Virus record (IMG/VR): IMGVR_UViG_3300042465_000302
Coordinates: 1-27,600 of that record
Length of the DNA: 27,600 bases
From: a virus
Reading direction: 5' to 3' (one strand)
This document shows, piece after piece, positions 9,616-27,420 of this stretch. Under the pieces are notes generated by a model that saw only the letters and a program-made list of their open reading frames with translations, ran no database searches and was not told where the DNA came from. The position numbers and the translations under genes are program-made. Each line of letters opens with the position of its first letter. Within the stretch, counting starts at the first letter, position 1.

Positions 9616-10251
9616 TCACGGGGGGAGCGCAGAGACAAATGTCATTGTCGCCACTACAGACTGCGTAGACGGCTTGGTTGGCGTTCCGGAAGCGGCAAGG
9701 TGCTGAATGGACACATCGGTGTTGGGAACAGACCAATAGATTTCGATGTACTGGCCCGCCGTCATACTTAGAAAATAATTCCAACCAATAATTGAGTGTC
9801 CGTCCGTACCTCCGTGGCTACCCGGAATAGATACAAAGCCAGTCGAACCCGGTATATTTACCCCATTTTGACGCAACCAAATGTATACATCTTGAACATT
9901 ACTATTTGCGTTTGTAAACTGCGTACTAAACTGTAAGTTGTATATGCCAGCCGTTGCCACTGTAATTTTAGAAGTTGCAATACTTACACCATTGGCAAAA
10001 TCCGTGGTGTTTAACGTCATCAAGGTGGCGGTGTTAGCGGTGGTGGTCTGATCTTGATCGCTGGAAAATGCGCCATACGGAACCGACAAAGTTCTTAACT
10101 GCCCCAGAATGTTGTCCACCTGATTGAAGTACAGGCGCAGAACGTCAGCAAACTGATCGTGGTAGCGCTTCTCGTAGTCCGTCGGAGCGGTGGGCAGGCG
10201 CGGCGCGACGACCCGGTTGAGTTCAAACTCAGATGTAACGATCTGGGTCAT
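9616..10251 (-). CDS. Small tail/virion protein with C-terminal C1q/TNF-like jelly-roll domain
   Basis: This 211-residue protein overlaps the upstream gene by one base (TGATG). Residues 1-55 are helical ('DYEKRYHDQFADVLRLYFNQ', then 'VDNILGQL') and probably anchor or trimerise. From about 65 on the sequence is beta-rich, with hallmarks of the C1q-like jelly roll: 'VATAGIYNLQFSTQF', 'VYIWLRQNGVNIPGS' and 'AGQYIEIYWSVPNTDVSI'. Jelly-roll trimers of this kind serve as receptor-binding or capsid/tail decoration proteins in phages. The product lies among core structural genes rather than in the main fibre block, so it may be a head or tail decoration protein. Confidence 0.75.
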   Translation of the reverse strand: MTQIVTSEFELNRVVAPRLPTAPTDYEKRYHDQFADVLRLYFNQVDNILGQLRTLSVPYGAFSSDQDQTTTANTATLMTLNTTDFANGVSIATSKITVATAGIYNLQFSTQFTNANSNVQDVYIWLRQNGVNIPGSTGFVSIPGSHGGTDGHSIIGWNYFLSMTAGQYIEIYWSVPNTDVSIQHLAASGTPTKPSTQSVVATMTFVSALPP

Positions 10252-16633: not shown

Positions 16634-16972
16634 TTAAACCGTCTGGAAGGGCGTGGTCGGGTTGTTAGTCAGATCAGCCACGGGGAACTCATGGGTCTGC
16701 CCCACCATGCTTTTGAACTGGTTGACCTGCTGCGGGTTGGCAGTAAGTTTTTCCTTGGCCTCTTGCAGCTTGGCGTGGTGCATACCGGCCATGGCGATGC
16801 GCTTCTTGATCTCTTCAGTATCGGTGACATCGGGCCACATGGTCATCGGCTGAAAGGCATACGCGGTGTACGCTGCCGGGTCGGTGCTGGCCGTCGTGTC
16901 GGAGGCAAAGGAAACCAGCAACGAGTTGCTGGCCTCGTCGTACCCTTGGATTTTGAATTTGATGCTGTTCAT
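16634..16972 (-). CDS. Small conserved-looking phage protein following tail adhesin, unknown
   Basis: I choose ATG 16972 (112 aa) because GGAG occurs five bases upstream at 16978-16981, right after the stop of the adhesin; a longer frame to 17023 would read through the adhesin's end. 'MNSIKFKIQGYDEASNSLLV' begins a beta-type N-terminal half; residues 52-92 are helical ('DTEEIKKRIAMAGMHHAKLQ' and following). This resembles small proteins that accompany phage tail fibre genes, possibly an assembly factor. No membrane span or enzyme motif is visible. Confidence 0.65.
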   Translation of the reverse strand: MNSIKFKIQGYDEASNSLLVSFASDTTASTDPAAYTAYAFQPMTMWPDVTDTEEIKKRIAMAGMHHAKLQEAKEKLTANPQQVNQFKSMVGQTHEFPVADLTNNPTTPFQTV

Positions 16973-16977
16973 TGTTG

Positions 16978-16981
16978 CTCC
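16978..16981 (-). promoter_or_regulatory. Ribosome binding site deciding the start at 16972
   Basis: Minus-strand GGAG, then five bases, then ATG 16972. It lies just after the TAA of the upstream adhesin gene (16984-16986), which supports the shorter reading. Confidence 0.6.
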
Positions 16982-16983
16982 GA

Positions 16984-17859
16984 TTAAGCTGCTGGACCTT
17001 GCCGCGTGCCGGTCGCGGTCCACGTAACAAAACTATTACCAACGATGTAGAAGCCGGCTGCACCGCCTGCACCGCCCGGACGGGGGTTGGCACCGCCAGT
17101 TGCCGCACCGTTTGCACCGTTGGCTCCACGACCACCACCAGCACCGCCACCGATGCCTTGGAAGTCGCCGGGGTTGCCTGCGCCACCCGCACTGTCTGTT
17201 CCGTTGTTGCCGGGGAAAGCGCCGCCACCACCGCTTCCGGGGTTAAAGCCTGCACCGCCACCACCGCCGCCACCCCAACCGGAACCACCTTTGCTTGGCG
17301 TCCAGCCAGAACCACCCCCGCCACCACCGCCACCACCGGCAATCACGTTGTTGTTCTGGATGGTCGTGGCCCGGTTGATGTACAGAGCGTTACCGGCATT
17401 GGTGCCGGGGTTGCCCCCGCTTTGAGCGGCAAACTGAGAATCACCGCCGTTACCGCCCATGCCCTCGATGACGCCGTTGTTGATGATGGTGACGGTATCC
17501 CCAGCGTTAAACGAGTTGGTCACCAGCATGGCGTATGTGCCGGTCGAAGTGCTGCCGACAAACACCCCACCGTTCACCGTGACTTGAATGTCAGAGATGC
17601 CGGCGATGTACGTGCCACCCCGGTTGGCGTACACATCGTAGTTGTACGTAGAGGAGGAGATGGTCAGCGGGATGAAGACGCGCTTGACCGTGCCGTAGAA
17701 GTTGCTGATCGAGATGGCCCCGGAGGTGGGAACCGTCGTGTTGTTGGAGGTTACAAACGCACCCCCACGGTAATACTCAGACATGCTGATGGGGTTAGAC
17801 CCCCCGAACTCAGTCTGTATCTGGGTAAGCGCCAAGGGGCCAGAAGAAGGCAGAGCCAT
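16984..17859 (-). CDS. Glycine-rich tail adhesin (Gp38-like polyglycine domain)
   Basis: The 291-residue protein has the N-terminal phage signature 'ALPSSGPLALTQIQTEFGGS' and 'ISMSEYYRGG', then 'VPTSGAISISNFYGT', a beta middle with 'GTYIAGISDIQVTVNGGVFV', and from about residue 135 to 275 a series of glycine runs separated by short variable loops ('GGGGGGGGGSGW', 'GGGGGGGAGFNPGSGGGG', 'GGARGANGANGAATGG'-like stretches). Such glycine motifs in T-even Gp38-type adhesins pack as polyglycine II helices and expose loops that contact the receptor. The C-terminal 'GFYIVGNSFVTWTATG' closes the domain. The start is firm: AAGGAG lies at 17865-17870. Likely a tail-tip receptor-binding protein. Confidence 0.82.
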   Translation of the reverse strand: MALPSSGPLALTQIQTEFGGSNPISMSEYYRGGAFVTSNNTTVPTSGAISISNFYGTVKRVFIPLTISSSTYNYDVYANRGGTYIAGISDIQVTVNGGVFVGSTSTGTYAMLVTNSFNAGDTVTIINNGVIEGMGGNGGDSQFAAQSGGNPGTNAGNALYINRATTIQNNNVIAGGGGGGGGGSGWTPSKGGSGWGGGGGGGAGFNPGSGGGGAFPGNNGTDSAGGAGNPGDFQGIGGGAGGGRGANGANGAATGGANPRPGGAGGAAGFYIVGNSFVTWTATGTRQGPAA

Positions 17860-19588: not shown

Positions 19589-19744
19589 TTAATTATCGGC
19601 GGGCAGGGGTTGGTTACCTTCTTCCAGCCACTTCTGAAACTCAGGGTAGTCAGCCGTGCAGGTCAGGCGGCACTTGCCGTCATCGTCAATACGGGCAAGA
19701 ATTTGTGGTTCGCCTTCAACGGCGGGAAGCATTTTGAAAATCAT
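19589..19744 (-). CDS. 51-aa small protein of fibre module, KWLExGNxPLPAD family
   Basis: The reading starts ATG 19744, overlapping the stop of the 365-aa fibre (ATGA), with GGAG nine bases upstream inside that fibre's last codons. The product begins 'MIFKMLPAVEGEPQILARID', continues 'DDGKCRLTCTADYPEFQKWL' and ends 'EEGNQPLPADN'. It closely matches the 55-aa product at 20838-21005. The 'WL..GN.PLPAD' ending is reminiscent of short proteins beside phage tail fibre genes, which are often fibre assembly factors. Two Cys, no membrane segment. Function inferred only from linkage. Confidence 0.75.
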   Translation of the reverse strand: MIFKMLPAVEGEPQILARIDDDGKCRLTCTADYPEFQKWLEEGNQPLPADN

Positions 19745-20838
19745 AGTTCAGCACTCCAGCCAAGGTATGCATTAGTGTTTGCTGCGCGAAGAAACCCAGC
19801 AAGCCCCGCAGTCTGTCCTGATGCCACAGTTAAGTTGACTTGCCACATACTCGTTGATGCATCGTTATGGGTTGGAACAGAGCTTGATGCTCGTGAAGCA
19901 CCACCAGTAAGCACCAAGTAGTCGCTTGCCGTTCCGGATTGCTCCAAAGCTGTCGGGGCGCTTCTCATGGTTACCGGAAAAACGCCGTTAGCATTGCCTG
20001 CTGTTGCCGTGGTTGCCCATGCTGTTACCGAAATAATTTGGCTGCTGGCAGATGGCGTGATCCGGTAGTAGTACCGCTGGCACTGGATCAACTGCCGCCC
20101 GTAGTCAAGGCGCTCAAACTGCTCGGCCACAGTGCCCGTTTCCAGTTGCACCCCGGTGATCTGCCATGTAGCCGCATTAGTTGCCATCAGATTGGTTGCG
20201 CCAGTTGCAGACAGTAGCTGTGACGCGGCCCAAGCACCTGCGGTTCCTGCAAACCCAGACGCCACGCCAAGTCCCCAATAAACACGGATGCCAGTGTTAT
20301 TGTCTGTAGCCCATGTGCCAGCAGTGTCGCCGGCAATCGTGACCGTCTTCTGCTCCCAAGTGTTGGCCGCATTAATGGTGTAGGTGAACGGATACGAACG
20401 ATTCACGCCGTTGTTGCTCAGAGCGCCACCAAAAGTTCCCGTCACGCTGGATTTGGCCCAAAACGACAGAGTAACTGTGGCAGCACTTGCAGAACCCCAC
20501 GCAAGATCAGCCGTGTTAAACCCTTCAATAAACTGAGCGGCGTAGTAAAGGTCGGAGCCAGAAAGTGAAGAGTCAATCGTTGTGACGGTGACCCTTACTG
20601 AATTGGTGAACCCCGCAGGAGCGTCGGCAACCTGCTGCGCGGTGAACACGCCCGAAGATGACACTCCAGAAAAACGGAACCTATCCACCGGATAAAAAGC
20701 CCCTGCGGTATTTACAGTCACCGCCGCCCCGGCGTTCCTCTGATCAATCCGCATGTCACCATTGATGATGCGGTTACGGAACCCCTGTGCGTTGGCTTCG
20801 CTACTGAGCAGCGCGGCGGATACTTGGGTGAGCGGCAT
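19741..20838 (-). CDS. Tail fibre/appendage protein, paralogue A of RNRIINGxMxIDQRN family
   Basis: The 365-residue protein has 'GFRNRIINGDMRIDQRNAGA' at 19-38, an aromatic 'FYPVDRFRFSG' strand, 'YYAAQFIEGFNTADLAWGSA', 'VTLSFWAKSSVTGTFGGALS', 'ANTWEQKTVTIAGDTAGTW', and 'YGRQLIQCQRYYYRI' at about 245-259. These features recur at the same spacing in the two other paralogues of this window. The beta-sandwich-like middle resembles a carbohydrate-binding module. The C-terminal 100 residues differ between paralogues. It ends 'WSAEL' and couples by ATGA to the 51-aa gene. Likely a trimeric receptor-binding fibre. Confidence 0.78.
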   Translation of the reverse strand: MPLTQVSAALLSSEANAQGFRNRIINGDMRIDQRNAGAAVTVNTAGAFYPVDRFRFSGVSSSGVFTAQQVADAPAGFTNSVRVTVTTIDSSLSGSDLYYAAQFIEGFNTADLAWGSASAATVTLSFWAKSSVTGTFGGALSNNGVNRSYPFTYTINAANTWEQKTVTIAGDTAGTWATDNNTGIRVYWGLGVASGFAGTAGAWAASQLLSATGATNLMATNAATWQITGVQLETGTVAEQFERLDYGRQLIQCQRYYYRITPSASSQIISVTAWATTATAGNANGVFPVTMRSAPTALEQSGTASDYLVLTGGASRASSSVPTHNDASTSMWQVNLTVASGQTAGLAGFLRAANTNAYLGWSAEL

Positions 20839-21005
20839 CAGTTGGTCTCCGGTTCATCAGCAGGCAGCGGGGTGTTCCCGGCTTCCAGCCACTTCTGAAA
20901 CTCAGGGTATTGATCGGTACAGGTCAGGCGGCACTTGCCATCGTCGTCGATGCGGGCGTAGATTTGTTGCTGATCGTCAACTGGCGGAAGCATTTTAAAA
21001 ATCAT
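20838..21005 (-). CDS. 55-aa small protein of fibre module, KWLExGNxPLPAD family
   Basis: ATG 21005 overlaps the end of the 359-aa fibre (ATGA); an upstream in-frame extension to 21020 lies within that fibre and is less likely. The product starts 'MIFKMLPPVDDQQQIYARID', then 'DDGKCRLTCTDQYPEFQKWL' and 'EAGNTPLPADEPETN'. About four fifths of positions match the 51-aa paralogue. The stop overlaps the next fibre's start as TGATG. Being inserted after each fibre, it is a candidate fibre-specific chaperone or connector. Confidence 0.78.
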   Translation of the reverse strand: MIFKMLPPVDDQQQIYARIDDDGKCRLTCTDQYPEFQKWLEAGNTPLPADEPETN

Positions 21006-22081
21006 AGTTCTGCACTCCATGCAAGAAATGCGTTTGCGTTAGCTGCTCTGATTTGCCCACCAAAACCCGTAGTAAGCCCAGAAGCAACGGTCAGGTTGAC
21101 GGAGGCACAATCAATAGTGGAAATTCCAAAAGCGGGCACTGAGTTACACGCTGGATTTGCAGCACCAGCTATAACCATGTAGTCAGCCGCAGTTCCTGAC
21201 TGTTCTAGGCTGAGAGGTCGAGTCCTCATAGATGTCGGAAAACTAACTAATGCAGTTGCAACAGTGGTCGAGTCACAAAAAAGAGACCCCATCCGCGTTC
21301 CGGTTGCTTCGCTTTTAAGCCTGTAATAATACCGCTGGCACATGATCAGCTCACGGCCGTAGTCCCGGTACTCGAACGGGGTGGCGGAGGTGCCGCGCTC
21401 AAGCTGGACGCCGGTGATGTAGAAGGTGGCGCCATTGGTGCCGACTACGGATGTTGCGCCAGTTGCGGACAAATAGTTTGCGCCTGCCCAAGCCCCCGCC
21501 GTGCCACTGCTGTTCGACCCAACTCCAAGGCCAAACCAAAGTGCCAAACCCTTGCCGTTTGTCGTTAGCCAAGTGCCAGTCGTGTCGCCAGCAATGGTGA
21601 CAGTCTTTTGCTCCCAAGTGTTCGCGGCACTGATGGTGTAAGTGAACGGGTAACTGCGGTTTTGTGCGCTGTTAGTTACCGAGCCACCAAAAGTTCCCGT
21701 CAAACTGGAACGCACTTGAAATGACAGCGTAACTGTTTGAGCACTAGCAGTGCCCCACCCAAGGTCAGCAACGTTCAAGCCTTCGATAAACTGAATCAAT
21801 ACAAAAGCGTCAGTCGATAGGACAGAATATGCTGACGACGATGTGGTGAGCAGTGAGTTAATAAATCCCGTAGGAGCAGTAGAAGACTGCTGTGAAGTCA
21901 GTTTTGACGCTTGGCTGACATAGTAGTTCCAGCGATCAACTACGTAGGTAAATGCCCCGTTAGCAGGCGTCACACTCGCCCCAGCATTCCTCTGGTCAAT
22001 GACCATCGCCCCGTTGATGATCCGGTTGCGCCACGAGACGTTGTTGGTGCCCGACTGGGCGATGCCTACTGCTGCGGTCAT
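21002..22081 (-). CDS. Tail fibre/appendage protein, paralogue B of RNRIINGxMxIDQRN family
   Basis: The 359-residue protein has 'SWRNRIINGAMVIDQRNAGA' at 16-35, 'VVDRWNYYVSQASKLTSQQS', 'LIQFIEGLNVADLGWGTASA', 'VTLSFQVRSSLTGTFGGSV', 'NTWEQKTVTIAGDTTGTW' and 'YGRELIMCQRYYYRL'. It shares its middle with the 365- and 379-aa proteins, while the last 90 residues diverge and the end 'WSAEL' is shared with paralogue A. Its Shine-Dalgarno (GGAG) lies inside a 13-codon mini-ORF just upstream. Likely trimeric carbohydrate-binding appendage; no catalytic motif seen. Confidence 0.78.
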   Translation of the reverse strand: MTAAVGIAQSGTNNVSWRNRIINGAMVIDQRNAGASVTPANGAFTYVVDRWNYYVSQASKLTSQQSSTAPTGFINSLLTTSSSAYSVLSTDAFVLIQFIEGLNVADLGWGTASAQTVTLSFQVRSSLTGTFGGSVTNSAQNRSYPFTYTISAANTWEQKTVTIAGDTTGTWLTTNGKGLALWFGLGVGSNSSGTAGAWAGANYLSATGATSVVGTNGATFYITGVQLERGTSATPFEYRDYGRELIMCQRYYYRLKSEATGTRMGSLFCDSTTVATALVSFPTSMRTRPLSLEQSGTAADYMVIAGAANPACNSVPAFGISTIDCASVNLTVASGLTTGFGGQIRAANANAFLAWSAEL

Positions 22082-22119
22082 TGCAGGGACTCCAGTTGTT
22101 TATCTGTCGGGTTCATCAT
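22078..22119 (-). CDS. Mini-ORF, 13 codons, leader of fibre paralogue B
   Basis: Minus-strand reading 'MMNPTDKQLESLQ' ends with TGA overlapping the fibre ATG (ATGA). Its start is preceded by GAGGGCCGC, the same context as the start of the S74 fibre after the other C1q gene (25425). The Leu-Glu-Ser codons hold the GGAG for the next gene. It may be a translated coupling leader or the remnant of a lost gene. Confidence 0.35.
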   Translation of the reverse strand: MMNPTDKQLESLQ

Positions 22120-23144
22120 GCGGCCCTCACCATTGAGGCTTGAAAAAAGACCGCTGGCGGCCCGAAAGCGGAAGTGTTCTGCGCGCTGCCATTGTTATGC
22201 TGCCCATAAATCTCGACGTAATCTGTCGAACCATTCAGGTAGACAAGACAAGAAATCGTATTGTTTAGGCCCACTGCGTTATTAGGAACCGAACTTCCAC
22301 GCTTTAATTCCGCACCGTTCTTATAAACCATAATGAACGTGTAAGTTGAAGTCCAACCGCCCCAGTTGATGCCCGCGTTGACTTGGTAATACCCTGCAAC
22401 CGTTGGCGTAAAGCGATAGTTCGTGGCGTTGTCGTAACAGCTATTGGTGTCGAACTCTTCAGTTTGAAAGGCTATTTTTGTTGCAGTCGCGTTATTGATA
22501 CTTTGAGCGCCGCTGGCGTATGCGCTGAACGCCGGGCCATTGCCCGCCACGCCAGAAGCCAGCTTGGCTTGCGTCACGTTTGCATCTGCAATCTTGGCCG
22601 TCGTCACCGACCCATCCACCAGATACGTAGTACCCACAGACCCTGCCGTGCCGGGGATGGCGTTCAGGACCGAGGAGACATAGAACGACTCCGTGACCAC
22701 CAGATCACCCGCAGAGGCTGGGTTCACCAGAACCACCGTCGTTCCGTTACTGGCGGTGTAGTCCGCCGTGCCAAGAAGGACACCATTCCTATAAACATTC
22801 AAAAACCCCACCGTGTAGCTGGGCGGGGTGAACGTGGTCTGGCCTGCGGTGGCGGTGAACTCCGTGAGGGTGCGGTAGGCGGTCGTTGTGACCCCGGAGG
22901 CCGGGATGCCCAGAAAGCGCACAGAGATGTTGGCCGTGCCCGATGGCGGGGCGGCGGAGAAGGTCAGGGTGGTGCCGTTGACCGAGTAGGTGCTGGGGTC
23001 TTGCAGAACGCCAGTGACCGCGACAAGCAGCGAGTTCGTGTTGGCCGGAGCCGCAGACAGCGTGAAGGCAGTCTGAGACCCAGTCCCGGAGAACTGATCC
23101 GTCAGGAAGGCCGTGGTGAACGGCTGGTTGCCGATGTATGCCAT
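22116..23144 (-). CDS. Tail fibre protein with MAYIGN N-terminus and C-terminal C1q-like domain
   Basis: The 342-residue protein starts 'MAYIGNQPFTTAFLTDQFSG', then two successive beta domains at about 15-77 and 88-150, each with the pattern 'TAFTLS/TTFTPP...V.NGV/RNGVLLG...Y......T.V.L..P..G' (for example 'TFSAAPPSGTANISVRFLG'). A linker 'VTTAKIADANVTQAKLASGV' (about 175-195) leads into a C1q-like jelly roll (195-342) with 'FRFTP/YRFTPTVAGYYQVNAG', 'YKNGAELKRG' and 'CLVYLNGSTDYVEIYGQH'. The C1q part is clearly related to the 183-aa protein at 25422. Expected to trimerise and bind host surface glycans. AAGGAA precedes the ATG. Confidence 0.82.
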   Translation of the reverse strand: MAYIGNQPFTTAFLTDQFSGTGSQTAFTLSAAPANTNSLLVAVTGVLQDPSTYSVNGTTLTFSAAPPSGTANISVRFLGIPASGVTTTAYRTLTEFTATAGQTTFTPPSYTVGFLNVYRNGVLLGTADYTASNGTTVVLVNPASAGDLVVTESFYVSSVLNAIPGTAGSVGTTYLVDGSVTTAKIADANVTQAKLASGVAGNGPAFSAYASGAQSINNATATKIAFQTEEFDTNSCYDNATNYRFTPTVAGYYQVNAGINWGGWTSTYTFIMVYKNGAELKRGSSVPNNAVGLNNTISCLVYLNGSTDYVEIYGQHNNGSAQNTSAFGPPAVFFQASMVRAA

Positions 23145-23318
23145 TTAGGGGGTTCCTTCTTCGGCTGCTGGCGCATCCGCAGGCAGGGGTTGGTTGCCTT
23201 CTTCCAGCCACTTCAGGTACTGCTCGCTATTGGTTACGTTGTGCCATTCGCCCGTTTCGACCCCGTCAATAATTTTCTGAGCGAAGTCGGAGAAAACATT
23301 TAGCTTGTAGGTGACCAT
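23145..23318 (-). CDS. 57-aa small protein of fibre module, chimeric KWLExGNxPLPAD family member
   Basis: ATG 23318 starts two bases after the stop of the 379-aa fibre. The product begins 'MVTYKLNVFSDFAQKIIDGV', then 'ETGEWHNVTNSEQYLKWLEE' and 'GNQPLPADAPAAEEGTP'. Only the last third matches the 51- and 55-aa paralogues; the N-terminal 32 residues are unrelated. The gene's last codons (Glu-Glu-Gly) provide the AAGGA used by the next fibre. The same position after a fibre gene, with one shared segment, suggests an adaptor with exchangeable front end. Confidence 0.72.
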   Translation of the reverse strand: MVTYKLNVFSDFAQKIIDGVETGEWHNVTNSEQYLKWLEEGNQPLPADAPAAEEGTP

Positions 23319-23320
23319 TT

Positions 23321-24460
23321 TTACAACTCCGCAGATGCTGTGACATGGATGGCGGCGTTTGTCCCGCTAGTAGAAGTGGCGTTGTTGTAAACAGTCACGC
23401 CGCGAGTGCCGGGGTTAGAGGTGGCGGCTGCCACAGTTCCTGCGGTGTTGAGAAACCAAGAAGACCCGGCCGCCGACGGGTTATAAGTTGTCACCACACT
23501 CGGCCCAGTCCGCATCTCTACCGGGAAGAACCACGTTGCAATTAGGCCAACGCTCACACCAGTGCCGGAGCCATTTAGCGTAAGCAATGCGCCACCTTGT
23601 CCGGCGTTAGACGCCGGGGCTGTGCCTTGGCTGAACGTCATGCAAAAATACCGCTGGCACAGCATCAGCTCACGGCCATAGTCGATCTGTTCAAACGGTG
23701 TGGCTACGCTTCCAGCTTCCAGTTGAACGCCGGTGAGGTTAAAGGTAGCGCCGTTGGTGCCGCTGAGCTTTACATCGCCAGTTGCACCCCGATAGTCTGC
23801 GGCTGCCCACGCTCCAGCAGTTCCAAGCAGGGTCGATCCCATTCCAAGATCAAACGAAACCCGCACTCCGCCAGTGTTATCCGTACTCCATGTGCCGGTA
23901 GTTGGCCCGGCGATGGTAACGGTTTTAAACTCAAACGTATTCGCTGCGCTGATAGTGAAGCTGAACGGGTACGAGTAATCCTGTGCCGAGTTTTGTAGCG
24001 CCCCGCCAAACTGCCCAGTCAAAGAACTGCGAACCCAAAACGACAGTGTGATAGCAGAAGCGCCTGCTGCGCCCCAGCCAAAATCGGCAATATTAAAGCC
24101 CTCAATGATTTGAGTCAGGGCGCAGCGGTCGGCAGACCCTGCTGCGGCGGCTGTGGTTGTCGTAATAAGCAAAGATCTATTAAAACCTGCTGGCGCGGTG
24201 CTAACTTGTTGACCAGAAAAGGCCATTGACCCGTTTTCAAAGACTTGCCACCTGTCTGTTAAATAGGTGGTCGTGCCGTTTGATATAGACACACTCGCCC
24301 CGTTATTCCGCTGGTCGATGACCATGTTGCCATTGATGATCCGGTTCCTGAACCCAAGGCTGTTGACCGCAGAGATGTTGTTGCCGTTGACGGACAGGGT
24401 CGAGGCTGTGACGCCAAGCCCGGAGGTCAGGCCGTTCGTGCCTATGGTGCTTACGGCCAT
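23321..24460 (-). CDS. Tail fibre/appendage protein, paralogue C of RNRIINGxMxIDQRN family
   Basis: The 379-residue protein has an extra N-terminal stretch 'STIGTNGLTSGLGVTASTLS' (4-23) before 'GFRNRIINGNMVIDQRNNGA' (37-56). The shared body follows: 'TDRWQVFENGSMAFSGQQVS', 'ALTQIIEGFNIADFGWGAAG', 'ITLSFWVRSSLTGQFGGALQ', 'FEFKTVTIAGPTTGTW' and 'YGRELMLCQRYFCMTF'. The last 110 residues are specific and end 'TASAEL'. AAGGAG lies seven bases before ATG 24460, encoded within the end of the upstream S74 fibre. Likely a trimeric receptor-binding appendage. Confidence 0.78.
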   Translation of the reverse strand: MAVSTIGTNGLTSGLGVTASTLSVNGNNISAVNSLGFRNRIINGNMVIDQRNNGASVSISNGTTTYLTDRWQVFENGSMAFSGQQVSTAPAGFNRSLLITTTTAAAAGSADRCALTQIIEGFNIADFGWGAAGASAITLSFWVRSSLTGQFGGALQNSAQDYSYPFSFTISAANTFEFKTVTIAGPTTGTWSTDNTGGVRVSFDLGMGSTLLGTAGAWAAADYRGATGDVKLSGTNGATFNLTGVQLEAGSVATPFEQIDYGRELMLCQRYFCMTFSQGTAPASNAGQGGALLTLNGSGTGVSVGLIATWFFPVEMRTGPSVVTTYNPSAAGSSWFLNTAGTVAAATSNPGTRGVTVYNNATSTSGTNAAIHVTASAEL

Positions 24461-25425
24461 TACTGTGCTCCTTCAAGCGCGGCGATGCGGGCGGTCAGGG
24501 AGGTGATGAGGGCTTGCTGTTCCTGAATCGCAGCGGTCAGCGTGGCGACCAAGAAGCTGGTGTCGATGCCCTGATATTGAGGGTTGCCGTCAGCGTCCAC
24601 TGCATCCTTTGCACCGGTCACGCAGTCGGGGACAACTGCTTGCAGTTCGTGAGCAATGAAGCCCTCACCATCCGACCCATCCGCTTTCCATTTGTACGTC
24701 ACCGGCTTGAGGGCGGCAACGCGGGCCAAAGCTCCGGTCATGGGCGCAATGTTTTCTTTCAGTCGGTAGTCGGACGAGGTGTTATACGCGGTCGCACTAG
24801 TCGTGACGCTGATCGTGCCAACGGTTGTGTTGCTGCGCCTGATTGTTATTGCTGTGCCGTCGCTGCCTTGCCTATTAACTAGAAGCGCATCGCCATTACG
24901 GGTCAAAACTGCGCCGTAAGTTCCAAATTCACATCCGGCTGCAGTAGCGTCCGCTGCAGTTTTCCCCACCAGAAAGTTCCCGCTGGAGTCGAGCATAGCC
25001 CGCGCTGTGTTGCTTGTCCCAAAAACAAGCGGATACGCACCAGTCGTAGTGATCGCGGCGCTTTCCCCCGTAGGGCCACCAGACAGCAACGCACCTGAAT
25101 AGGCCGAACCCGAATAATCAATTTCCAGTGCGCGAGAACTGGAGTTCTGATCGTTATACAAGCGAAGGCTGGTATAGCTCGTGCTGCTGGTATTTCGCAA
25201 CATAGAAATGCTGCCGACCACTTCCAATCTGGTGGTGGGAGAACTCGTCCCAATCCCCACGTTGCCAGAACTATTGGCCGTGATCACATCCGCAGTGGTA
25301 GCCCCAGAGTTACCCACACCTAGACGCACCGTGCCGTCAGGCGTTGCGGGCTGATACAGCGTGAAGTTGTTGGTGGCAGTGACCGACTGGCCGACCTGTA
25401 CGTTGTTCGTTTTTAGGGTGCTCAT
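24460..25425 (-). CDS. Tail fibre with C-terminal peptidase S74 intramolecular chaperone (copy 2)
   Basis: The 321-residue protein has short beta repeats 'SSGNVGIGTSSPTTRLEVVG' (52-71) and 'LDSSGNFLVGKTAADA', typical of trimeric phage fibres. Residues about 216-321 are an S74 domain: 'YNTSSDYRLKEN' (S217-S218-D219, K223), 'LARVAALKPVTYKW', 'GEGFIAHELQAVVPDCVTG' and 'YQGIDTSFLVATLTAAIQEQ', then a coiled coil. This domain drives trimer folding and then cuts itself off at the serine. The end 'ALEGAQ' also encodes AAGGAG for the next gene. Start overlaps the C1q gene by ATGA with GAGGG four bases upstream. Confidence 0.92.
   Translation of the reverse strand: MSTLKTNNVQVGQSVTATNNFTLYQPATPDGTVRLGVGNSGATTADVITANSSGNVGIGTSSPTTRLEVVGSISMLRNTSSTSYTSLRLYNDQNSSSRALEIDYSGSAYSGALLSGGPTGESAAITTTGAYPLVFGTSNTARAMLDSSGNFLVGKTAADATAAGCEFGTYGAVLTRNGDALLVNRQGSDGTAITIRRSNTTVGTISVTTSATAYNTSSDYRLKENIAPMTGALARVAALKPVTYKWKADGSDGEGFIAHELQAVVPDCVTGAKDAVDADGNPQYQGIDTSFLVATLTAAIQEQQALITSLTARIAALEGAQ
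24468..24473 (-). promoter_or_regulatory. Ribosome binding site encoded in the S74 C-terminus (gene at 24460)
   Basis: The codons for Leu-Glu-Gly-Ala at the end of the S74 protein contain AAGGAG, seven bases before ATG 24460. The same arrangement occurs at 25981-25986 before ATG 25973. Confidence 0.6.
24471..24795. repeat. S74 chaperone-coding direct repeat, copy 2
   Basis: This 325-base stretch aligns without net length change to 25984-26308 and opens with the same 24-base word. By eye about four fifths of positions agree, with many synonymous differences. It encodes the last part of the S74 domain. Confidence 0.8.
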
Positions 25426-25973
25426 GCGGCCCTCGCCAAAAATGCTTGAAAGGATGTTTGTCGAGGAGCGCCCCCAGACACAGTTCCGGCATTATTGCCT
25501 TGCACATATATCTCAACATAATCAGTTGTGCCGTTTAAATACATTAGCGCATACACGCCGCAGCTGTCGCTATTAGTGGCATTTCCTGTATTAGAAAACC
25601 CTTCCATATAAGAGCTTCCATTTTTGTAGATGTATGCGGTGTATCGATTACTGTAAGCATCAACCGATATGCTTGAATTAATTAAATAATATCCCGCCAC
25701 ATTGGGGGTAAATCTGTAATTAGTAACGGAGTCATAGCAACCCGCCGTATCGAAATCTTCAGTGCCAAACTGCACCTTTGTAAATGTAGCCGCACTGATT
25801 GATTGTGAGCTTCCACGGTACGCAAAGAACGCAGGGCCAGTCCCCGCAAAGGTAGACGCAGTGCTCACCAAGGTGCCGGTGTTATCCGGCAGGGTCAGGG
25901 TCTGGTTACTGGCCGTGCTCGGCTCTTGCAGCGTAACACTGCCACCGCCGGAGGAGTTGAGTTTCAGGCTCAT
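25422..25973 (-). CDS. Short fibre/decoration protein with C1q-like domain
   Basis: The 183-residue protein has a short phage-type N-terminus 'LNSSGGGSVTLQEPSTASNQ' followed by 'TLTLPDNTGTLV', then a C1q-like jelly roll from about 40: 'GPAFFAYRGSSQSISAATFT', 'KVQFGTEDFDTAGCYDS', 'YRFTPNVAGYYLINSSI', 'AYIYKNGSSYMEG' and 'ALMYLNGTTDYVEIYVQGN'. It resembles the C-terminal domain of the 342-aa fibre. Likely trimer that binds sugars or a partner fibre. AAGGAG sits seven bases before the ATG at 25981-25986. Confidence 0.82.
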   Translation of the reverse strand: MSLKLNSSGGGSVTLQEPSTASNQTLTLPDNTGTLVSTASTFAGTGPAFFAYRGSSQSISAATFTKVQFGTEDFDTAGCYDSVTNYRFTPNVAGYYLINSSISVDAYSNRYTAYIYKNGSSYMEGFSNTGNATNSDSCGVYALMYLNGTTDYVEIYVQGNNAGTVSGGAPRQTSFQAFLARAA

Positions 25974-26938
25974 TGTGCGGCTCCTTCAAGCGCGGCGATG
26001 CGGGCGGCTTGACTATCTACGATTCCTTTGAGTTCCTGAATTGCAGCGGTCAGCGTGGCGACTAGGAAGCTGGTGTCGATGCCTTGGTAGACGGGGTTGC
26101 CTTCCGCATCTACTGCATCTTTCTCGCCAGTCACACAGTCAGGGACAACTTCAGCCAACTCGTGAGCAATAAAGCCTTCGCCTGCGGAGCCATCGACCTT
26201 CCACTTGTATGTGCAGGGCTTCAAAGCGGCAACGCGGGACAGTGCGCCTTGCATTGGCTGCACGTTCTCTTTCAAGCGGTAGTCGGATGATGTGTTGTAC
26301 GAAGTCGCAGTCGTGGTTACATCAATTGAGCCAACATCTGTGTTGTCGCGCTGCAATCGAATAACCTCGCCGTTTCCGTTCCACCGCGCAGCAATAATTG
26401 CGTGTGAATTATTTACGCCAATTAAGGCGCCACCAGCGCTTAATTGTGAACCGTAAGTACCAGAGGAGTGGGGGTTGGCTGTCGTCGTCCCCACCAGCAG
26501 GTTCCCGCTGGCATCCAGCGTCATCGCCTGCGTGAACGTGATCGCGTTGCCTGCGGTGCCGGAGGCAGCGTAGTACCACTTGTGGACGTTTGCATCTATG
26601 GTGTAAAGACCAGCAGCAGAGTTGGCAACATACTTGTAGCCCGAGTTGTAATAGGCGTTATTCGCCAGATTCGCTTCAGAGCCAATCCCAAAAAACATCG
26701 ACCTAGCGCCAATTTGAATCGCTTTATAGAGGCTGTCCCACGCACTCGGCGTGACCCCGATGCCGACGTTGCCCGAGCTATCAATCCGCATGACCTCCGT
26801 ACCACCTTCAGCAAATGCGATGGTGTCAGCAGCGGGGAAGAAAATCCCGGTGTTGGAATCCGTGCCACGGATCGCTGGCGTTGCAGCAGAGCCGTCAACA
26901 TCAGACAGGCCGCTATCTCCAGAAAGAATTAAGCTCAT
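25970..26938 (-). CDS. Tail fibre with C-terminal peptidase S74 intramolecular chaperone (copy 1)
   Basis: I use ATG 26938 (322 aa; ATGA overlap with the previous stop) rather than a TTG at 26950. The body has 'GDSGLSDVDGSAATPAIRGT', 'TGIFFPAADTIAFAEGG', 'EVMRIDSSGNVGIGVTPSAW' and 'LDASGNLLVGTTTANP'. The S74 domain begins at the same residue numbers as in the other copy: 'YNTSSDYRLKEN' (S217-S218-D219, K223), 'LSRVAALKPCTYKW', 'GEGFIAHELAEVVPDCVTG' and 'YQGIDTSFLVATLTAAIQEL'. Mature protein would lose about 100 residues after trimerisation. Likely a receptor-binding fibre that differs from copy 2 mainly in its body. Confidence 0.92.
   Translation of the reverse strand: MSLILSGDSGLSDVDGSAATPAIRGTDSNTGIFFPAADTIAFAEGGTEVMRIDSSGNVGIGVTPSAWDSLYKAIQIGARSMFFGIGSEANLANNAYYNSGYKYVANSAAGLYTIDANVHKWYYAASGTAGNAITFTQAMTLDASGNLLVGTTTANPHSSGTYGSQLSAGGALIGVNNSHAIIAARWNGNGEVIRLQRDNTDVGSIDVTTTATSYNTSSDYRLKENVQPMQGALSRVAALKPCTYKWKVDGSAGEGFIAHELAEVVPDCVTGEKDAVDAEGNPVYQGIDTSFLVATLTAAIQELKGIVDSQAARIAALEGAAQ
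25984..26308. repeat. S74 chaperone-coding direct repeat, copy 1
   Basis: Partner of 24471-24795 with equal length and orientation. Recombination between the two would delete the C1q gene and swap fibre bodies while keeping an intact chaperone. Confidence 0.8.
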
Positions 26939-27420
26939 GCCACCACCCAAGTAGAACCAGAAGAAACAGTCACTGTGACGCCGGATGCAATCGAAACTGG
27001 CCCGGCGCTCAGGCCATTATCCCCGGCAATGATTGTGTAGTTGGTGCTGATCGTGGCGCTGTTGGCAATGATCCCGCTGGTGACACGAAGCACGCCCGCC
27101 GTCACATCCAACCCCGTAGCCAGCGCCGACGTACCCACCGTACCCTGACTGGGGGCAAGCACCTGCGTGATCGGGCTGGTGTAGTAGACGTAGATGTTGT
27201 TCGTGCCCGAGGGCGGGGCCGATGTGAACGTGATCGTGTTGCCGCTGATCGTGTAGGCATCACCGGGCTTTTGCGGCACGTTCTCCACCACCGCCTGCAC
27301 CTGCGCTACAGACGCCACCGGGCGAGACAGCGTAAATGCGGTCGTGCTGGCATTGCCGCTGAAGAAATCAACAGCCGGGATGAATCCCTGCGTGGTGGGG
27401 GTGTTGCCAATAAACGCCAT
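26935..27420 (-). CDS. Short tail fibre protein with MAFIGN N-terminus
   Basis: The 161-residue protein starts 'MAFIGNTPTTQGFIPAVDFF', then one beta domain 'STTAFTLSRPVASVAQVQAV' through 'TFTSAPPSGTNNIYVYYTSP' that is the same kind found twice in the 342-aa fibre. A linker 'SQGTVGTSALATGLDVTAGV' follows, and the end 'AGDNGLSAGPVSIASGVTV' is a short beta prism-like stretch common in phage fibres. It has no receptor-binding head of its own, so it may serve as an adaptor that links other fibres to the virion. Coupled by ATGA to the S74 fibre. Confidence 0.75.
   Translation of the reverse strand: MAFIGNTPTTQGFIPAVDFFSGNASTTAFTLSRPVASVAQVQAVVENVPQKPGDAYTISGNTITFTSAPPSGTNNIYVYYTSPITQVLAPSQGTVGTSALATGLDVTAGVLRVTSGIIANSATISTNYTIIAGDNGLSAGPVSIASGVTVTVSSGSTWVVA

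Follow-up and report, generated by a model that had tools for sequence, protein, structure and literature searches.

Directly behind each of three related tail fibre genes (f1, f2 and f3) of IMGVR_UViG_3300042465_000302, a 27.6-kb water-borne bacterial virus whose minus-strand structural genes end in a long fibre array, lies a gene for a protein of about 50 amino acids (aa; s1, s2 and s3). We propose that each small protein is probably a dedicated single-domain assembly chaperone of the fibre that precedes it, acting as a folding clamp or a transient cap. In the window, by which we mean the whole stretch of 27,600 nucleotides analysed, and in many other phages, these small genes are real, are tightly coupled in translation, are almost invariably paired with fibres that carry the motif CQRY, and are exchanged together with the C-terminal tip of the fibre. 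Moreover, the same ~50-residue domain is the N-terminal half of longer proteins, likewise encoded behind a fibre, whose C-terminal half is known from tail fibre assembly. We refer to small proteins like s1 and s2 as type A, to those like s3 as type B and to a third, divergent type as type C. The genes concerned are as follows.

23321-24460, minus strand: f3, tail fibre of 379 aa; phrog_4492 tail fiber protein, E 1e-56; core up to CQRY, tip ending TASAEL
23145-23318, minus strand: s3, small protein of 57 aa, type B; 2-base gap after the f3 stop
22116-23144, minus strand: other fibre-like gene of 342 aa, without small partner; phrog_18673 tail fiber protein, E 5e-15, and DUF4183, E 6e-6
21002-22081, minus strand: f2, tail fibre of 359 aa; phrog_4492, E 5e-50; tip ending AWSAEL
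20838-21005, minus strand: s2, small protein of 55 aa, type A; ATGA overlap with f2
19741-20838, minus strand: f1, tail fibre of 365 aa; phrog_4492, E 2e-55; tip ending GWSAEL, of the same tip type as f2
19589-19744, minus strand: s1, small protein of 51 aa, type A; ATGA overlap with f1

An earlier note on this DNA had reported three fibres of 365, 359 and 379 aa, each followed immediately by a gene of 51–57 aa, and this was borne out (51, 55 and 57 aa; two ATGA overlaps and one 2-base gap), the proper start of s2 being at 21005 (55 aa) and not at that of the longest open reading frame (ORF) of 60 aa. The C-terminal sequence KWLExGNxPLPAD was found in all of s1, s2 and s3, and the core motifs RNRIINGxMxIDQRN and YGRxLxxCQRY in all of f1, f2 and f3, as the note had said; the phrog_4492 profile matches of the fibres span the last ~320 positions. 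There are three pairs, but they are not consecutive as its thrice-repeated gene order implied: the 342-aa gene begins directly after s3 (TAAATG) and so separates s3 from f2. Similarly, the fibre C-termini are variable between f3 and f1/f2 but not between f1 and f2, which have one tip type and whose small proteins are 80% identical. The third small protein, s3, is distant from these, its nearest relatives being those of loci L081 (62%) and L082 (48%), and the likeness is well above chance throughout (s1 versus s2, E 5e-29; s3 versus s2, E 1e-5). Changes between s1 and s2 are mainly silent, with a ratio of nonsynonymous to synonymous substitution rates (dN/dS) of 0.14; the median dN/dS in IMG/VR homologues was 0.18 for type A and 0.23 for type B, and nearly every pair was below 1. 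The small genes are thus under purifying selection.

The small proteins s1–s3 and 53 family members had no match in Pfam, and sequence searches gave no NCBIfam or PDB match for the small proteins. The only family models that matched the 53 members were phrog_20370 (51/53), phrog_26867 (31/53) and phrog_34019 (22/53), all of unknown function, the first of which was built on longer proteins such as the 137-aa protein of phage ACP17. In the literature searched, the CQRYY motif in fibres is unnamed and such a small chaperone is undescribed. The system can therefore still be called undescribed with respect to family databases, as in the earlier note, but not entirely with respect to annotation: a few records read ‘tail fiber assembly-like’ or ‘tail assembly chaperone’.

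Small genes and fibres were found together from both search directions. Among 220 homologous ORFs in IMG/VR, 215 had an upstream gene on the contig, and this gene was an adjoining CQRY/QLExG fibre in 211. Because one search behind this figure used a pattern that overlaps the fibre end, the count obtained with fibre queries is to be preferred. The 157 loci retrieved with f2 or f3 contained 169 fibres with room behind them, and a type A or B small gene followed 151; when the other 18 cases were read individually, type C stood behind 14 and neither kind behind 4. Homologues lying mostly far from such fibres, the outcome that the earlier note had set against its own proposal, were thus found in neither direction. 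Glu-Leu are the last two residues in 206 of the 211 fibres, though the tip preceding them is hypervariable, and this invariant C-terminal -EL is possibly the end by which the small protein recognises its fibre.

The junctions are tight in both main types. Type A genes start at −4 (ATGA) in 77 of 88 pairs, and type B genes mostly at 0 to +3 bases, often as TAAATG. In 71 IMG/VR pairs (for example L175:3995-4000, L101 and L082) the type B start is in the fibre frame after a single TAA, so that readthrough would yield a fibre–small protein fusion, a product that is hypothetical. Type C, with the motif VPLDPANxDYAxIMxLVxxGxLTIAPAE, was seen behind the same fibres in L304, L326, L328, L329, L348, L350, L352 and L265 and in Methylophilales phage Melnitz-2 (L118:6018-6206), where it is annotated ‘tail assembly chaperone’. 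Two fibre/small pairs are carried by 24 loci, and homologues lie behind the fibres of Methylophilales phage Venkman as gp57-gp56 and gp53-gp52; its small protein gp56 (L119) is labelled ‘mesocentin-like’, probably a misannotation. A homologue behind a fibre is also present in Prochlorococcus phage P-TIM68, Pseudomonas putida autographiviruses, Acidovorax phage Alfacinha1, ACP17, Xanthomonas phage FoX4 and cyanophage S-2L, in the last case annotated ‘tail fiber assembly-like’. In the P. putida phages ErraM and Kaagvere (L122, L123), the ~680-aa fibre is labelled ‘tail fiber assembly’ and the following small-domain protein ‘hypothetical’, which is probably a misannotation as well.

To follow partner matching we divided the fibres of 257 non-redundant pairs at CQRY into core and tip; such pairs are non-independent samples, and the matching figures given here are descriptive. 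The similarities of tip and core were uncorrelated (0.01), which indicates that tips are exchanged. In Mantel comparisons the small protein correlated with the tip at 0.18–0.19 (0/500 permutations as high), with the core at 0.10–0.12 (3/500 permutations as high) and with the next gene at −0.01. The small type of the nearest neighbour agreed in 88–90% of cases when the neighbour was chosen by tip, 65–68% by core and 58% by next gene, chance being 50%; and small type differed in 1% of pairs with similar tips (score >0.5), 21% of pairs with closely similar cores and 49% of all pairs. The next gene is equally close to the small gene yet does not track with it, hence closeness alone does not explain the matching.

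The edges of the exchanged segment can be read in single comparisons. The core DNA of f3 is 95% identical to that of L069 over 703 bp, stopping 13 bp after the CQRY codons begin, beyond which L069 has an unrelated tip and a type A small protein instead of type B; and in the same manner f2 is 96% identical to L032/L209 over 705 bp, stopping 14 bp past the same point. The f2 tip together with s2 is common to L007 and L017 at 92–94% DNA identity. When all loci were compared, 15 of the 35 homology blocks had an end no more than 60 bp from CQRY, and ~10 had one near the end of the small gene. As to origin, the earlier note had taken the unit to be duplicated in this genome to widen host range; the duplication was not supported. 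The closest relative of s1 is the small protein of L007 (96%, versus 80% to s2), the closest relative of f2 is in another phage (77%, versus 55% to f1) and the f3 core is common to another phage. Recent duplication in place was therefore rejected as a simple account, and the units look collected or long diverged.

Natural fusions connect the small domain with proteins of tail fibre assembly. Several of the homologues in named phages are 113–148 aa long and consist of the small domain and a C-terminal part. In L129, a P2-like piece of DNA from a faecal virome, a 129-aa protein is likewise a fusion, and its gene is flanked by those of a tail fibre and of the sheath, at the site of G in P2. In hhalign its N-terminal part aligned as the small domain with the family profile (E 4e-9). 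The C-terminal part matches PF16778 Phage_tail_APC (E 3e-8, over the curated cut-off) and phrog_188 (‘tail fiber assembly protein’, E 3e-20) and has 38–49% identity to the tail fibre assembly proteins found in Pseudomonas phages. In the P. putida phage proteins the C-terminal half matches phrog_4628, phrog_188 and phrog_8746, all ‘tail fiber assembly’, with E 1e-4 to 2e-3. From these fusions, the small domain fills the position of the fibre-binding domain of Tfa-type chaperones. No relatives were found in one pattern scan of bacterial genomes with the L129 fusion, and none in a scan of viral contigs with the P. putida protein.

The AlphaFold2 model of s3, built with 102 homologues, has a mean predicted local distance difference test score (pLDDT) of 85.8 and a strand-strand-strand-helix order with a loose C-terminus; against models of viral proteins (BFVD) it found mostly its own family, including S-2L-sized and FoX4 proteins, in weak matches (best E 0.02). 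The modelled tip of the L175 fibre consists of a helix and nine strands (pLDDT >90) with the conserved -SAEL after the last strand, and Foldseek relates it weakly (E >0.1) to tailspike LKA1 gp49 (probability 0.97), the lectin domain of the R1-pyocin fibre (0.82) and snail H-type lectins (0.6–0.7). We infer that the small domain attaches to the newly synthesised tip, its sheet probably extending the beta domain of the tip near the invariant C-terminal -EL, and that it would hold the tip until three chains are in register and then depart or remain as a cap. The two types, A and B, would each suit tips of different classes. Since the small proteins lack the C-terminal trimerising helical domain of Tfa, it is the fibre that would have to supply three-fold symmetry.

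Several points weigh against the chaperone reading. The proposed role in binding and folding comes from sequence comparison, and the small proteins have no trimerisation domain. In the Foldseek search of PDB folds, the s3 model matched neither Mu Tfa nor Pam3 gp25 nor any other solved structure (best E 3.4). When the L175 tip and its small protein were modelled by AlphaFold2 as one chain (the in-frame natural pair with TAA read through, 68 paired rows), each part was confident but the predicted template modelling score (pTM) was 0.62 with no confident docking; this model is a monomer, whereas the fibres are trimeric, and it counts neither for nor against docking. Moreover, PF16778 scores below its cut-off in the P. 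putida phage proteins, unlike in L129. Co-exchange with the tip could also be due partly to physical closeness, though the gene downstream, which is just as close, shows no such tracking. The dedicated assembly factor proposed in the earlier note is supported in part, by the linkage, the tracking of tips and the natural fusions.

The main competing explanation, which we consider unlikely, is that the small protein belongs permanently to the virion, staying on the fibre tip as a cap, connector or co-receptor-binding subunit. Mu and Ur-lambda Tfa stay in the particle, as cited in PMC9608196, A5 gp9 is still bound after purification (PMC10579305), and tip-specific pairing fits a structural subunit equally well; but the PF16778 fusions point to a role in assembly, and the functional parallels Pam3 gp25 and V22 gp27 are absent from the mature fibre (PMC9608196, PMC7289586).

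A small gene of some other function might instead be a neutral hitchhiker, co-transferred merely because it adjoins the tip-coding end. Recombination blocks that end at the CQRY codons and at the small-gene end are also expected from such a physical cassette; we nevertheless find this improbable, given that 165 of the 169 fibres, across many unrelated groups of phages, have such a gene behind them, and given purifying selection, multiple paired copies per genome (the loci with two) and a next gene that does not track. Still more improbable, to the point that we give it very little weight, is a cis role in which the small ORF chiefly serves the next fibre gene, as an element of the mRNA or for the coupling of translation: this would agree with the very tight junctions at either end of the small genes, but dN/dS is far below 1, the predicted fold is confident, homologues carry C-terminal protein domains and the following genes differ, with uncorrelated similarity. 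The single-domain chaperone therefore remains the reading we favour.

Other genes of the window touch on the same theme. The minus-strand genes at 24460-25425 and 25970-26950 are two more fibres, which end in Peptidase_S74 (PF13884) intramolecular chaperone domains, so that with f1–f3 at least two fibre-folding strategies would coexist in this phage. A Gly-rich GP38-type adhesin of 291 aa lies within 16634-17859 on the minus strand (PF05268, E 1e-10; phrog_2056, E 6e-18) and is then followed by a 112-aa ORF at 16634-16972 with no family or PDB match; by its position, this ORF may encode a chaperone resembling Pam3 gp25, making a fourth and different fibre/partner pair. Three minus-strand genes for fibre-like or virion-protein-like products, at 9616-10251, 22116-23144 and 25422-25973, look C1q/TNF-like by eye only, with weak matches to phrog_15750, phrog_13518 and BclA_C.

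Fibre tips determine which host can be infected, and many do not fold when expressed alone. Most likely this very small protein assists the tip, by folding or capping it. If so, a family now listed as of ‘unknown function’ or mislabelled, whose genes stand behind hundreds of fibres in phages of fresh water and the sea, would gain a testable role and a name, and the missing factor for producing such fibres in the laboratory would be supplied. It would also show how small a fibre chaperone can be, as these proteins lack the half by which Tfa and Pam3 gp25 trimerise. The edges of the cassette of tip and partner, at CQRY and at the small-gene end, mark the limits of the tip module.

Among known systems, the Peptidase_S74 intramolecular chaperones of T5 and K1F likewise act at the C-terminal end of the fibre, but they are part of the fibre chain itself, and PF13884 is absent from f1–f3 and s1–s3. 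The V22 gp27 and A5 gp9 chaperones are encoded downstream of the fibre and exchanged with it between distant phages, and three of their strands are proposed to pair with the fibre head and extend its sheet (PMC7289586, PMC10579305); they differ in being 195–239 aa long with DUF4376. Membership of the small proteins in the DUF4376 chaperones was rejected, as there was no Pfam match and hhalign of the small domain to V22 gp27 gave a probability of 0.4. In the cryo-electron microscopy structure of Pam3 gp24-gp25, a variable 55-residue N-terminal domain of the chaperone sits on the fibre and a helical C-terminal domain trimerises (PMC9608196). The small proteins have the size of this fibre-binding domain alone, whereas gp25 of this cyanophage has its own trimerising domain and a Gly-rich fibre client, and Foldseek did not match it to the small model.

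A parallel in arrangement is seen with the Tfa proteins (Mu gpU, lambda Tfa, P2 G; PF02413 Caudo_TAP and PF16778). As in these, the gene is directly downstream of the fibre gene, and the protein is specific for, and exchanged with, the variable C-terminal part of the fibre, as judged here from sequence statistics and not biochemistry; in addition, a PF16778 protein (L129) at the P2 G site of a P2-like phage has the small domain for its N-terminal half. The differences are the size of ~50 aa, the lack of the C-terminal helical domain of PF16778/Caudo_TAP and the lack of any sequence or fold match of s1–s3 to a solved Tfa. A wider view, which we hold only tentatively, is that this abundant, undescribed family comprises the smallest known fibre chaperones, in which a monomeric ~50-residue domain may clamp a lectin-like tip by its -EL strand without a trimerising part and, as an exchangeable cassette inherited with the tip, may represent the ancestral or reduced fibre-binding module of the two-domain chaperones. 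Because the C-terminal PF16778/PF02413 domain is absent, we do not class the small proteins as members of Tfa, but rather as a reduced variant of the Tfa principle.

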